Of a stretch of 33,743 bases of DNA, positions 7,363 through 19,933 are shown in pieces. Below the pieces are notes generated by a model. The model had not been told where the DNA came from and made no database searches. It saw only the letters and a program-made list of their open reading frames with translations. How positions within the stretch are numbered: position 1 is the first letter of the stretch; each line of letters starts with the position of its first letter. This stretch comes from Candidatus Aminicenantota bacterium (GTDB taxonomy: Bacteria > Acidobacteriota > Aminicenantia > Aminicenantales > Saccharicenantaceae): NCBI GenBank assembly GCA_016867635.1, contig VGJC01000008.1:1-33743 (forward strand). The letters are read 5' to 3'. A program made the translations under genes and the position numbers.

Positions 7363-9174
7363 ATGTTCAAAGAACATCCCAAAGGCCTGATCGTCGCCTT
7401 CTTCTCCAATATGGGCGAGCGGTTCGGCTTCTACACGATGATGGCCATCCTCGTGCTCTTCCTCCAGGCCAGATACGGCCTGTCCGCCGAGAGCGCGAGC
7501 GGATACTACAGCTCGTTCTATTTCGCCATCTACGCCCTGGCCCTGTTCGGGGGGCTGATCGCCGACGCCACCAGCAAGTACAAGCTGGTCATCGGGACGG
7601 GCATCGTCGTCATGCTGGCCGGGTACGTGATCATGGCCCTGCCGGGGATGCCCCTGGCCCTGACGCTCGTCGGCCTGTTCACGATCGCCTTCGGAAACGG
7701 GCTGTTCAAGGGCAACCTCCAGGCGGTCGTCGGGCAGATGTACGACAACCCCCAGTACGCCAAGGTCCGGGACACCGCCTACATGATCTTCTACATGGGC
7801 ATCAACGTCGGGGCCTTCTTCGCCCCCTACGCGGCCACGTCCATGCGGAACTGGTTCCTGCGGTCGCAGGGCTTCGAACACGACGGCAGCCTGCCGGCCA
7901 TCTGCCACGCCTTCCTCGGCGGTCGCCTGACGGACTCGTCGGCCATCGGCCATTTCGAGGGCCTGGCCGGGAGGGTCTCGGGCCAGGTCGTCTCGGGCGC
8001 GGAGCAGCTGACCGCTTTCGCCAATCATTATCTCGAGGCTTTCTCCAAGGGCTACAATTACGCTTTCGGCGTCGCCGGGGCGGCCATGATCGTCTCCCTC
8101 CTGGTCTTCGTGATCTTCAACAAGTACCTCCCCAACAAGACCAAGAAGAAGGCCGAGGGCGGGCTGCAGCCCGCGGCGGCCAAGGCCATGAAGGGCGCCA
8201 GCGGCATCATCATCGCCGGCCTCGTCACCGTGGCCACGGCCTTCCTGTTCAAGGCCCTGATGAACGACTTCGAAGTGGGGCTGGCCGTCGGCCTGTTCAT
8301 CGGCTTCGTGGCCATGATCGTCCGGGCCTCCACCAAGGAGGAGAAGCCGCGGGTCATGGCCCTCGTCATGGTCTTCGTCGTGGTCGTCTTCTTCTGGATG
8401 TCGTTCCACCAGAACGGCCTGACCCAGACCTTCTTCGCCCGGGACTACACGGTCAAGGAGGTCGACCCGCTCACGAACATCTTCTTCAACCTGAAGTCCA
8501 TCCTGCCCTTCATCGCCGCCGTGGCCGGGCTGATCATGTTCTTCACCCGCAAGAAGCCCGGCGAGAAGGCCCTCAGCTTGGCGGCCTTCCTGGGCTTCGG
8601 GGGTCTGACCTATTACATCGCCAAGGGCTACGTGACGCTCAATCCCATCGCCCCGGAGATCTTCCAGTCCTTCAATCCCTTGTTCATCGTCGTCCTGACC
8701 TTCCCGGTCATGGGCGTCTTCGCCTGGCTGAGAAAGAGGAACCAGGAGCCGTCCACGCCGCGCAAGATCGGCATCGGCATGATCATCGCTTCGGTCGGGT
8801 TCATCATCATGCTCGTCGGCTCCCTGAAGCTCGTCTCCCCGGGGGCTGTCGCGGCCCAGGGCCTGACCGAGTGGGGGAGGGTCTCCCCCTATTGGCTGAT
8901 CAGCAGCTACCTGACCTTGACCATCGCCGAGCTTTTCCTGAGCCCGATGGGGCTGTCGTTCGTCTCCAAGGTCTCGCCGGAGAGGTTCCAGGGCCTGATG
9001 CAGGGCGGCTGGCTGTTGGCCACGGCCACCGGCAACAAGCTCCTCTTCGTCGGCGGTTATCTCTGGGACCGGGTCGATCTCTCGATCGTCTGGGGCATCT
9101 TCGTCGCCTGCTGCCTGCTGTCGGCCGCGTTCATCTTCTCGATCATGAAGAAGCTGGAACGGGTGACTTCCTGA
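7363..9174 (+). CDS. POT-family (PTR2) proton-dependent oligopeptide transporter
   Basis: A 603-residue inner-membrane MFS transporter that takes up di- and tripeptides with protons. Evidence includes the N-terminal ERFGFYTMMAILVLFL helix, the GNGLFKGNLQ and DTAYMIFYMGINVGAFFAPY blocks of the PTR2 family, and an ELFLSPMGLSFVSKVSPERFQGLMQG C-terminal block. The length (canonical about 500) reflects a loop around residues 165-225 and extra membrane segments in the middle. The proton-coupling motif ExxERF reads N16-M-G-E19-R20-F21, so the first glutamate is asparagine. The start is fixed by GGAGG 7 nt upstream and a strong promoter. It stands alone, followed by a convergent UroD-like gene. Confidence 0.93.
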   Translation: MFKEHPKGLIVAFFSNMGERFGFYTMMAILVLFLQARYGLSAESASGYYSSFYFAIYALALFGGLIADATSKYKLVIGTGIVVMLAGYVIMALPGMPLALTLVGLFTIAFGNGLFKGNLQAVVGQMYDNPQYAKVRDTAYMIFYMGINVGAFFAPYAATSMRNWFLRSQGFEHDGSLPAICHAFLGGRLTDSSAIGHFEGLAGRVSGQVVSGAEQLTAFANHYLEAFSKGYNYAFGVAGAAMIVSLLVFVIFNKYLPNKTKKKAEGGLQPAAAKAMKGASGIIIAGLVTVATAFLFKALMNDFEVGLAVGLFIGFVAMIVRASTKEEKPRVMALVMVFVVVVFFWMSFHQNGLTQTFFARDYTVKEVDPLTNIFFNLKSILPFIAAVAGLIMFFTRKKPGEKALSLAAFLGFGGLTYYIAKGYVTLNPIAPEIFQSFNPLFIVVLTFPVMGVFAWLRKRNQEPSTPRKIGIGMIIASVGFIIMLVGSLKLVSPGAVAAQGLTEWGRVSPYWLISSYLTLTIAELFLSPMGLSFVSKVSPERFQGLMQGGWLLATATGNKLLFVGGYLWDRVDLSIVWGIFVACCLLSAAFIFSIMKKLERVTS

Positions 9175-17589: not shown

Positions 17590-17677
17590 GATGCCCGTGC
17601 GCCCGCCGACTGAGCCGGAGCCGCGCGTCGGGACTCGGCAGACCTCGCTCCGTCAGTCGTTCGTGGGGCGGGGCATC
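17590..17677. repeat. nested inverted repeats overlapping the patB stop codon
   Basis: Three complementary pairs nest in order: GATGCCC/GGGCATC (17590-17596, 17671-17677), CGCCC/GGGCG (17600-17604, 17666-17670) and CGACTGA/TCAGTCG (17607-17613, 17653-17659), with a further weak stem inside. The outer arm includes part of the patB stop (17676-17678). It may be the 3' end structure of the patB mRNA or a degenerate repeat; it lacks a T-tract. Confidence 0.45.
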
Positions 17678-18851
17678 ATGCGGGAAGGGCGTTGACCGCT
17701 CGTTCGATGCGCTCGAGGGCCATGAGGAGAAGGGCCCGGCGGCAGCCGAAGTTGACGCGGACAAAGCCTTCGGTCTGCGGGCCGAAGAGCGCCCCGTCGC
17801 TGAAGCGGACACGGGCCTCGCGCAGGAAGAAATCGTTGACCGTCGCGGGTTCGAGGCCGAGAGCCCGGGCGTCGATAAGGGCGAGATACGTTCCTTCGGG
17901 GCGGACGAGCCGGAGGCGCGGGACGCGCTCCTCGAGGAAGCGGGCCAGGAGATCGGCGTTGGCCTCAAGATAGGGAAGGAGCGAGTCGAGCCAGTCCGCG
18001 CCGTGGGCGTAGGCCGCCTCGAAGCCGACGAGTCCGAAGACCTGGCCGATCTCGAATCCGGAGCGCTCCCGTTCGTCCTCGAAGGCCTTGAGGAGCGCGG
18101 GGTTCGAGGCGACGGCGACGGCCGTCGACAGGCCGGGGATGTTGAAGGTCTTGCTCGGCGCGACGCAGGTCAGGGTCCGCGAGTCGATCTCCGGCGACAG
18201 GGCGGCGAAGACCTGGTGCCGGTGGCCGCGGAACACGAGGTCGTGGTGGATCTCGTCGGAGACGACCAGGAGGTCATGCTCGACGGCCAGGCGGCCGACC
18301 GCTTCGAGCTCGTCGCGCGTCCAGACCCGGCCGACGGGGTTGTGGGGGCTGCAGAGGATGAGCAGCCGCGCGCCGTCGCCGGCCTTGCTCCGGAGGTCGT
18401 CGAGGTCCATGAGATAGCGCCGGCCGTCGAAGCGCAGGGGGTTGCGGACGACCCGGCGGCCGTTGCGCTCGACGACGTAATCGAAGGGATGATAGACGGG
18501 AGTCTGGATGAGGACCCCGTCGCCCGGCTTGGTGAAGGCCCGGACGCAGAAGTTGAGGGCCGCGACGATCCCCGGGGTCAGGGCCATCCAGTCCTCGCGG
18601 ACGCTCCAGCCGTGACGGCGCTCGAGCCAGCCCTTGGCGACTTGCCGGAAAGACGGGGGCACGGAAGGGTAGCCGAAGACGCCGTGGTCGGCCCGCCGGC
18701 GGAGGGCCTCGACGACCGCGGGCGGGGCCTCGAAGTCCATGTCGGCGACCCACATCGGGATGACGTCCTCGTCGCCCGGGCGCCTCGCGGCGCCCCACTT
18801 CATGGACTCCGTGGCCCCGCGGTCGACAACCTTGTCAAAAATGGGGGACAT
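17676..18851 (-). CDS. PatB/MalY-type PLP-dependent C-S lyase or aminotransferase
   Basis: A fold-type I PLP enzyme of 391 residues, the usual size for the PatB/MalY (cystathionine beta-lyase-like) group. Visible features: FDKVVDRG...ESMKW opening, MWVADMDF at 33-40, PVYHPF at 118-123, CSPHNPVGR at 167-175, SDEIHHDL at 198-205, and the PLP lysine K234 in SKTFNIPG. It probably releases sulfide or thiols, ammonia and pyruvate from cysteine-like substrates. Two starts are possible: ATG 18851, which fits the family and lies inside the left arm of the inverted-repeat element, or ATG 18875 with a GGAG site just upstream, adding eight residues encoded by that repeat. I prefer 18851 on family length, not on ribosome binding. 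Confidence 0.9.
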   Translation of the reverse strand: MSPIFDKVVDRGATESMKWGAARRPGDEDVIPMWVADMDFEAPPAVVEALRRRADHGVFGYPSVPPSFRQVAKGWLERRHGWSVREDWMALTPGIVAALNFCVRAFTKPGDGVLIQTPVYHPFDYVVERNGRRVVRNPLRFDGRRYLMDLDDLRSKAGDGARLLILCSPHNPVGRVWTRDELEAVGRLAVEHDLLVVSDEIHHDLVFRGHRHQVFAALSPEIDSRTLTCVAPSKTFNIPGLSTAVAVASNPALLKAFEDERERSGFEIGQVFGLVGFEAAYAHGADWLDSLLPYLEANADLLARFLEERVPRLRLVRPEGTYLALIDARALGLEPATVNDFFLREARVRFSDGALFGPQTEGFVRVNFGCRRALLLMALERIERAVNALPA

Positions 18852-18984
18852 GATACCTATTTCCCTATTTTTCATTGTCTCCAGCGTTACGTCAGCGGCC
18901 GGCCTGCTTCTTAGTTCCCTTCTCGGCCGGCCGGGACTTGATCCTCCCTGCCCGGAAAATGGGAAATAGGTATCATGTCCCCCA
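18842..18984. mobile_element. 143-bp element bounded by 24-bp perfect inverted repeats (MITE/REP-like)
   Basis: The arms at 18842-18865 and 18961-18984 are exact reverse complements over 24 bp (left arm begins TGGGGGACATGATACC). The 95-bp interior has its own GC-rich stem, CGGCCGGCC against GGCCGGCCG. The right arm ends 1 bp before the stop codon of the M29-like gene (18986-18988), and the left arm contains ATG 18851, the likely patB start. No open frame inside is convincing. Its size, symmetry and position fit a non-autonomous mobile element, possibly mobilised by a Y1/RAYT transposase elsewhere (inference). Confidence 0.65.
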
Positions 18985-18985
18985 A

Positions 18986-19933
18986 TTAGAGGAGGAATTT
19001 GCCGGCCCGGGCGATCGTCCGGCCCTTGGCCGTGATGGTCACCTTGTCGACCAGGGCGTCGAAGTGGAACTTGCTCTTGTTCTTGCCGATCCCGTAGGAG
19101 TCGCCGATGGCGAAGTGGACCGTGCCGAAGGCCTTCTCGGCCTCGAGCATGTTGGGCGAGATGCGGGCGCCCTTGTTCGTGCCGATGCCGAACTCGCCGA
19201 TGATCCGGGCCGTCTCGTCATCGCCGACGGTCTTGATGACCTCGGCGATGCCCGCGCCCTTGTAGTCGACGAGCTTTCCCTTCTTGAAGGTCATGACTCC
19301 CCGGCCGAGCTTGTCGTCGATCAGGCTGATCACGATCCGGCCGTTGAAGGTCTCCTCGACCGGCGCCGTGTAGCATTCGCCGGCCGGCAGGTTGCCGTGC
19401 CTGCCCTTCTTGCTGATGTCGCCGTTGTCGTTGTGCCAGGCCCGGCCCTTGACGCTGAACTCGACGCGCGTCCCTTCGGGGTTCTCGACGACGACATGGT
19501 CGGCGTCCTTCATGGCCCGGATGACCTTTTTCGTGAACCTGTCCATCTCGGAGAAGTCGATGTTGACCAGGCGCTCCATCATGTCCCGGGTCAGGCCGGG
19601 CATCATGCAGATGCGGCCGTGCTTGCCGCCCTCCGAGACCATGAAGCCGCGGAAGGGCTTCTCCGCGAACCGGCCCTCGAGCAGGTAGGCCGTGGCCGTG
19701 GCCTTGCGGATCATGTCCTTGAAGAGCGAGGTCGGCCCGGTGATCGGCCGGAGCGTCTCGGTCATCAGGTAGGTCGTCGTCTCGGCCCCGGCCTTTTTGG
19801 CGTGGAAGGCCAGGGCTTCGGCGATCTCCATCTTCGGCTTATCGGTCACCAGGAGGAACCTGTCCTTGGGCCCGAGCTTCAGGGCCTGGTTGACGGCCCG
19901 CTCGGCCGCCCGGTGCAGCTTGTCGGTCTTCAT
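18986..19933 (-). CDS. M29-like (AmpS/AmpT family) metallo-aminopeptidase
   Basis: A probable cytosolic aminopeptidase of 315 residues, shorter than classical M29 enzymes (about 410). The C-terminal half carries the family's likely metal ligands in order: Glu in GEFGIGTN, Glu in MLEAEKAFG, His in TVHFAIGDS, and the His-x-Asp of FHFD. The block NLPAGECYTAPVE before them is also characteristic. AAAGGAGA precedes ATG 19933. It follows the OPT transporter on the same strand with a 45-bp gap and no visible promoter, so peptide import and hydrolysis may be co-expressed. The shortened N-terminal part makes the exact specificity uncertain. Confidence 0.85.
   Translation of the reverse strand: MKTDKLHRAAERAVNQALKLGPKDRFLLVTDKPKMEIAEALAFHAKKAGAETTTYLMTETLRPITGPTSLFKDMIRKATATAYLLEGRFAEKPFRGFMVSEGGKHGRICMMPGLTRDMMERLVNIDFSEMDRFTKKVIRAMKDADHVVVENPEGTRVEFSVKGRAWHNDNGDISKKGRHGNLPAGECYTAPVEETFNGRIVISLIDDKLGRGVMTFKKGKLVDYKGAGIAEVIKTVGDDETARIIGEFGIGTNKGARISPNMLEAEKAFGTVHFAIGDSYGIGKNKSKFHFDALVDKVTITAKGRTIARAGKFLL

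Follow-up and report, generated by a model that had tools for sequence, protein, structure and literature searches.

Within the window, a 33,743-nucleotide stretch of DNA from a Candidatus Aminicenantota bacterium, an inverted-repeat element at 18842-18984 sits between two co-directional minus-strand genes, the first for an M29-like peptidase and the second for a PatB-family C-S lyase. Taken as a whole, the element is probably a non-autonomous repeat of a TIRtron/REPIN-like kind that inserted at a stop codon and whose own codons were captured as the start of patB. REP-supplied stop codons have been noted before; what is new here is that start codons have been captured repeatedly, in a system where junctions lacking the element are available for comparison. 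Mobile DNA appears to mark both the ends and the beginnings of several ordinary proteins.

An earlier note on this DNA had described the element as two 24-bp arms around a 95-bp interior with its own GC-rich stem, and had proposed that it is a small mobile repeat that displaced the native 5' end of patB. The description is exact in the sequence: the arms are perfect reverse complements, the inner stem is formed by GGCCGGCC, the right arm ends 1 bp from the TAA of the M29-like gene, and the left arm holds ATG 18851, with a further in-frame ATG at 18875 that adds eight residues (MKNREIGI). A repeat search extends the arm pair 18842/18984 to 32 nt at 91% identity. Read as minus-strand RNA, the element is predicted to fold at -76.4 kcal/mol, against -44.65 +/- 4.02 kcal/mol for shuffled sequences (z -7.9; 0 of 200 as good), and across 184 arms the consensus edge of the family is AAAT followed by a run of G. 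The patB product matches TIGR04350 at 468 bits (cut-off 340) from F13 of the extended protein onward, immediately behind the residues MSPI; its nearest named relative in the public genome set is a PatB from Candidatus Aminicenantes (57%).

Features of the M29-patB junction (positions in the window)
Feature	Position	Strand	Basis or remark
A-rich outer edge beside left arm	18837..18841	+	edge composition, 184 arms; exact border uncertain
Left arm, TGGGGGACATGATACCTATTTCCC	18842..18865	+	minus-strand reading holds patB ATG
Interior, 95 bp	18866..18960	-	unshared with other family loci; orthologous patB elements similar in length
GC-rich inner stem-loop, arms GGCCGGCC	18895..18935	.	sequence and RNA fold
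Right arm, exact reverse complement of left arm	18961..18984	-	abuts M29 stop codon
patB, PatB-family C-S lyase	17676..18851 (to 18875 with inner start)	-	TIGR04350
Arm ATG, candidate patB start, MSPIFDK...	18849..18851	-	predicted fully paired in hairpin
Inner in-frame ATG, alternative patB start, MKNREIGIMSPIFDK...	18873..18875	-	predicted largely unpaired
GGAG, Shine-Dalgarno-like, ahead of ATG 18875	18879..18882	-	sequence
TAA stop of M29-like gene	18986..18988	-	TGA here in element-free species
M29-like aminopeptidase gene	18986..19933	-	Peptidase_M29, PF02073

The arm is one member of a large dispersed family. The genome that contains the window (G000) carries 22 copies at up to 3 mismatches, against 0 for a reversed-pattern control, and we collected 188 distinct arms across ten genomes of the genus. 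Copies are many in G005, G007, G011 and G012; at up to 3 mismatches there are none in G001, G006 and G010, and 1.59 Mb of G010 holds just six decayed arms. Sixty-four inverted pairs span 50-191 nt from one outer end to the other, and the remaining arms are single or more distant. Since 37 of 100 flank groups are common to at least two genomes, many of the insertions look old. A non-mobile palindrome or terminator with an ordinary regulatory role for M29 and patB would account for a place and length conserved in five species and for the strong hairpin, but we regard it as highly improbable: the element is absent from four close relatives, searches gave no terminator-like site on the strand of the two genes and no matching Rfam family, and we reject this explanation because the arms occur in many copies, at many unrelated junctions, and flank a transposase. 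The earlier note had taken a single copy, at a junction that distant relatives also keep, as pointing to such a palindrome; this is not what we found. A search of the element for promoter-like sites likewise found none. In G012, several loci (L126, L127, L128, L132, L134, L135 and L136) carry same-direction tandem double arms about 44 nt apart, at one or both element ends, an arrangement found mainly in that genome. A different palindrome, GGGGACATGTACC...GGTACATGTCCCC or close to it, lies upstream of the arm at L018 (G000:C62) and upstream of a GH38-like gene in G010, and is perhaps a second repeat family.

The Y1/RAYT-like transposase that had been expected near arm copies is present in G000, where a protein of about 219-222 aa is encoded between two arms (G000:C34:7862-8628; arms at 7862 and 8628). 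It scores 44.5 bits against PF01797 (cut-off 23), its HVH and Y...NPVRAG motifs are readable, and it matches the RAYT model NF047646 at 56.2 bits (E 3.5e-15), a related protein below the curated cut-off of 80. No C-terminal, DnaA-like helix-turn-helix was found, Pfam at E 0.001 giving only Y1_Tnp, and no sequence relative was found in the PDB. Of 34 family genomes, 29 encode relatives of this transposase, and GGGGACA-type inverted repeats lie beside many of the relatives inspected; G005 and G012 have many arms, yet the close transposase is present there only in broken or truncated form. The transposase element (L024:1385-2150) lies between rlmN and a sodium symporter gene, both of which terminate within its arms (...GKWGT and ...NWGT), and the transposase's own stop falls in its right arm. 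Two longer Y1 transposases of G000 (C227:829-1152 and C196:192-515; open frames of 333 and 326 aa) are about 36% identical to the arm-flanked one. Related transposases in the sister genus and elsewhere (L163-L172, L182, L189) are flanked by variants such as GGGGGACACAATACTC and GGGACACCCTAGA, which suggests that repeats and transposases diverge together.

Orthologous junctions with and without the element show what it displaced. In the empty junctions of G002, G006, G009 and G010, the TGA of the M29 gene overlaps a TTG start of patB followed by codons for K/R-Y-D-F-D (TTG AAA TAC GAT, giving MKYDFD...). In the filled junctions of G000, G003, G005, G007 and G011, the M29 gene ends in TAA, the native overlapping start is absent, and the patB frame begins inside the element with ATG (GTG in G003) TCC CCC/CCA (ATT) TTT GAC, or M/V-S-P-(I)-F-D; G011, for example, reads ATG TCC CCC TTT GAC. 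Because element-free relatives carry this different native 5' end, the proposed replacement did take place, and because outgroup PatB proteins mostly begin with [YF]DFD, KYDFD is the ancestral form and the arm-encoded MSP(I)FD is derived. G012 is half-filled, with one arm after the TAA of the M29 gene and then the native ATG AAA TAC GAC. In the sister-genus genomes covered, an M29 gene followed by patB was not seen within the examined flank. G004 (L034) and G008 (L031) have an armless patB that encodes an N-terminal SPFD, which may be a scar left in the coding sequence by a lost element.

Comparisons of this kind record past insertion or loss only, and the history at patB is not simple, as the filled species are not monophyletic: in trees including rpoB, whose backbone is weak, G003 groups with the empty G006 and G010 at 99, and G011 groups with the empty G002. 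Two histories would fit, repeated insertion at the overlap or one old insertion with subsequent losses or exchange. Independent insertions guided by a choice of the T|GA stop-start overlap as target would explain the scattered distribution, and also why the empty species share the ancestral KYD codons, which simple excision from a filled form could not restore; element lengths likewise differ at several other shared junctions. Against this, the outer lengths of the five patB elements are 139, 139, 139, 139 and 137 nt, in contrast to 50-191 nt for other elements, and the interiors of G003 and G007, the only pair with clear homology, are related at z 5.6; the SPFD of G004 and G008 could also be an old scar. 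We hold repeated insertion to be slightly less likely than not.

The remade stop codon of the M29 gene follows a rule that extends across the genus. With genes called by a simple codon model trained on the window, from known genes, 70 of the 100 arms that face a gene's 3' end have a stop codon between -12 and +7: 58 at -12 to -3, where 8.4% of random intergenic bases in the arm-poor G010 lie within 12 nt of a facing 3' end (an expectation for the -12 side only), and 12 at +7, where the protein terminates, mostly as KWGT, through (AA)A TGG GGG ACA TGA inside the arm. Stop-facing and start-facing arms share the edge AAATG, which is therefore part of the element; a T at -6/-7 is enriched on stop-facing arms only. 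In the -8 to -5 class, a comparison with orthologous genes in 1.59 Mb of G010 places the stop mostly at the native C-terminus, often with a native TGA or TAG replaced by TAA in the filled form, which indicates that the element retains the first T of the old stop and supplies AA. The sequences thus show elements placed at stops in either of two ways, with the old T kept and AA added from the edge (AAATG), or with the gene ended as ...WGT by the arm's TGA. By this comparison the M29 stop, too, is remade from a native T and AA from the arm edge, and such remaking is a genus-wide rule and no peculiarity of the M29-patB locus. A comparable stop-supplying role has been described, in PMC3733652, for GTAG REPs, whose ends often supply a stop codon.

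The capture of starts is similarly not confined to patB. A HAD phosphatase starts in arm or element codons in G007, G011 and G012, and rlmN does so in one frame in G011 and in another frame in G000 and G007. Further cases are an SSF sodium symporter (G011, GTG), an FMN reductase-like protein (G011), a methyltransferase (G000) and a GH38 mannosidase (G007), and for rlmN, the HAD phosphatase, the FMN reductase and GH38, the domain model begins at residues 5-9 of the arm-started protein. The arm ATG or GTG is the sole in-frame start of rlmN, the FMN reductase and the symporter in G011 and of the methyltransferase in G000; GH38, patB of G000 and several others have an inner in-frame start as well. 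Of 31 arms that lie no more than 30 nt from a coding start, 21 are in frame with the arm start, where one third is expected (p 9e-5); after orthologues are collapsed the figure is 15 of 25 (p 0.006). The count includes arms next to genes that have a start of their own outside the arm as well. The symporter junction is, as we read it, a visible intermediate state: G004 and G007 keep the gene's own ATG about 10 nt outside the arm, and in G011 that ATG is gone and the arm GTG is used in its place. We infer a route in which insertion at a stop codon would be followed by loss of the native start through a short deletion, and then by capture of the element's ATG or GTG.

In the patB mRNA folds predicted for all five filled species, a long stem pairs the arm start. 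An in-frame inner start (ATG in G000, G003 and G007; GTG in G005 and G011) is more open than the arm start in four of the five, the inner ATG of G003 being paired too. Burial of the arm ATG in the hairpin suggests that the real start may be ATG 18875, in which case the arm would be translated as an N-terminal extension and its ATG would be no start at all. We judge this evenly balanced. The inner start is in frame in every filled species, in G000 it is mostly unpaired with GGAG 4-5 nt upstream, and a similar reading, MKNREIGIMSPI, is found at the G011 HAD phosphatase; but its place varies (+32, +35, +53), in G005 it is a GTG without a clear ribosome site, in G003 it is paired, and in the four genes listed above the arm provides the only start in frame. 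PatB would begin either at ATG 18851, within a 24-30 bp hairpin whose stem would have to open, or else at ATG 18875, which is more accessible and from which translation would read through the arm. The hairpin would be expected to uncouple patB translation from that of M29, and would probably slow ribosomes at the M29 stop. Reduced translation in E. coli is reported for REPs that lie up to 15 nt from a stop (Liang et al. 2015, cited in PMC12306157), so an effect of the hairpin on M29 translation is plausible.

The same junctions bear on whether the captured codons are under selection. In the patB stem, two-sided changes retain pairing at 7 of 22 pairs in five species (0 of 500 shuffles as high, from only five sequences). 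The G007 patB stem has only two core mismatches, and both fall precisely on the patB ATG: opposite it lies an arm of the CACAAT type that prevails in G007, and the ATG survives in the start-side arm, as it does in the start-side arm of the G007 HAD phosphatase element. This retention, with a modest Fisher p of 0.019 from three start-serving arms, suggests selection on the start codon in G007. At rlmN, the arms of G000 (L010:1610) and G007 (L148:3267) share a change of TAGGTATC to TGGTATC, by which a stop is lost and ATG GTA arises in frame with rlmN; in G011 the start is the standard arm ATG, in another frame. In G010, the HAD phosphatase start is supplied by a decayed single arm (L264:5546), one of the six in that genome's 1.59 Mb. 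We considered homogenisation of an element's two arms as a general rule and rejected it, as only G011 exceeds shuffled partners.

A neutral passenger would produce much of what we see: a mobile repeat would survive only at gene ends, the least damaging sites, patB would use a leftover in-frame start, and neither arm codons nor hairpin would be selected. Most arms do sit at 3' ends and serve no start, the element-poor G006 and G010 do without them, and only in G011 do the arms of an element clearly match each other more closely than their shared subfamily in that genome would explain. We consider this account doubtful, though not negligible, as the compensating changes in the patB stem, the ATG kept in G007 against that genome's arm type, the shared change at rlmN and the decayed arm held at the G010 HAD phosphatase start all argue against it. 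A more far-reaching proposal, which we advance tentatively, is that the repeat acts as a portable border cassette whose arms end genes inward and start them outward. Inward, the edge would provide a TAA stop or the arm itself a TGA; outward, the start would be GGTATC-ATG-TCC-CCC, giving an M/V-S-P-I N-terminus. Captured starts would then be selected even against the hairpin, would have become obligatory in several unrelated genes genus-wide, and would uncouple overlapping gene pairs.

The probable reading, a mobile repeat inserted at a stop codon with its codons captured as the patB start, draws together the multicopy arms, the arm-flanked Y1 transposase and the filled and empty orthologous junctions, and on these three points the small mobile repeat of the earlier note is upheld. 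Element-free junctions, outgroups and an intermediate state together provide a clean natural experiment on the way mobile repeats are built permanently into gene expression, and make directly testable why REP-like repeats hug stop codons. Automatic start-site calls at arm-bearing junctions need checking.

Several described systems share parts of this architecture. REPINs and REP-BIMEs with RAYT, as presented in PMC2817692 and PMC8049555, are likewise non-autonomous inverted pairs with a variable spacer and one possible hairpin, with single arms as likely remnants, persistence in lineages, and a preference for gene 3' ends. Unlike GTAG REPs and REPINs, the arm GGGGGACATGATACCTATTTCCC is without a GT(A/G)G head, and a single arm is no GC-rich palindrome, the complementarity running between two arms. 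Rickettsia palindromic elements and intragenic REPs (PMC10969869; PMC3733652) also represent mobile palindromic DNA turned coding; there it lies mostly in frame inside genes, whereas here it provides first codons at gene borders together with the neighbour's stop. The E. coli REPs near stops (PMC12306157) similarly form a strong hairpin right after the stop codon, but their sequences are unrelated, and the effect at M29 is a predicted one. Our partial literature search found no description of start codons supplied by TIRtron- or REP-like repeats.

TIRtrons with TIRYT transposases (Di Nocera et al. 2013, PMC3733652; TnpA_REP subclass 2.1 in PMC6006769) are described as a RAYT-like Y1 transposase between terminal inverted repeats that bear a GGGG[AT][CG]A[CG]-type motif, in Acidobacteria among others. 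The element of G000:C34 has the same plan, with terminal inverted repeats on both sides of a RAYT-like Y1 (IS200-type) transposase, whose gene overlaps the 3' repeat; the repeats are dispersed as single and paired copies, and the M29-patB element matches its ends with its own inverted terminal repeats around a locus-specific spacer. The G000 arm, GGGGACAT, agrees with the GGGGWSAS motif at 7 of 8 positions, the last base lying outside it, and the corresponding stretch reads GGGGACAC in G003, G004 and most G007 arms. Unlike TnpA_REP subclass 2.1, the transposase has no C-terminal helix-turn-helix by Pfam. On sequence features, the closest described kind is thus the TIRtron/TIRYT system, accompanied by REPIN-like non-autonomous pairs.
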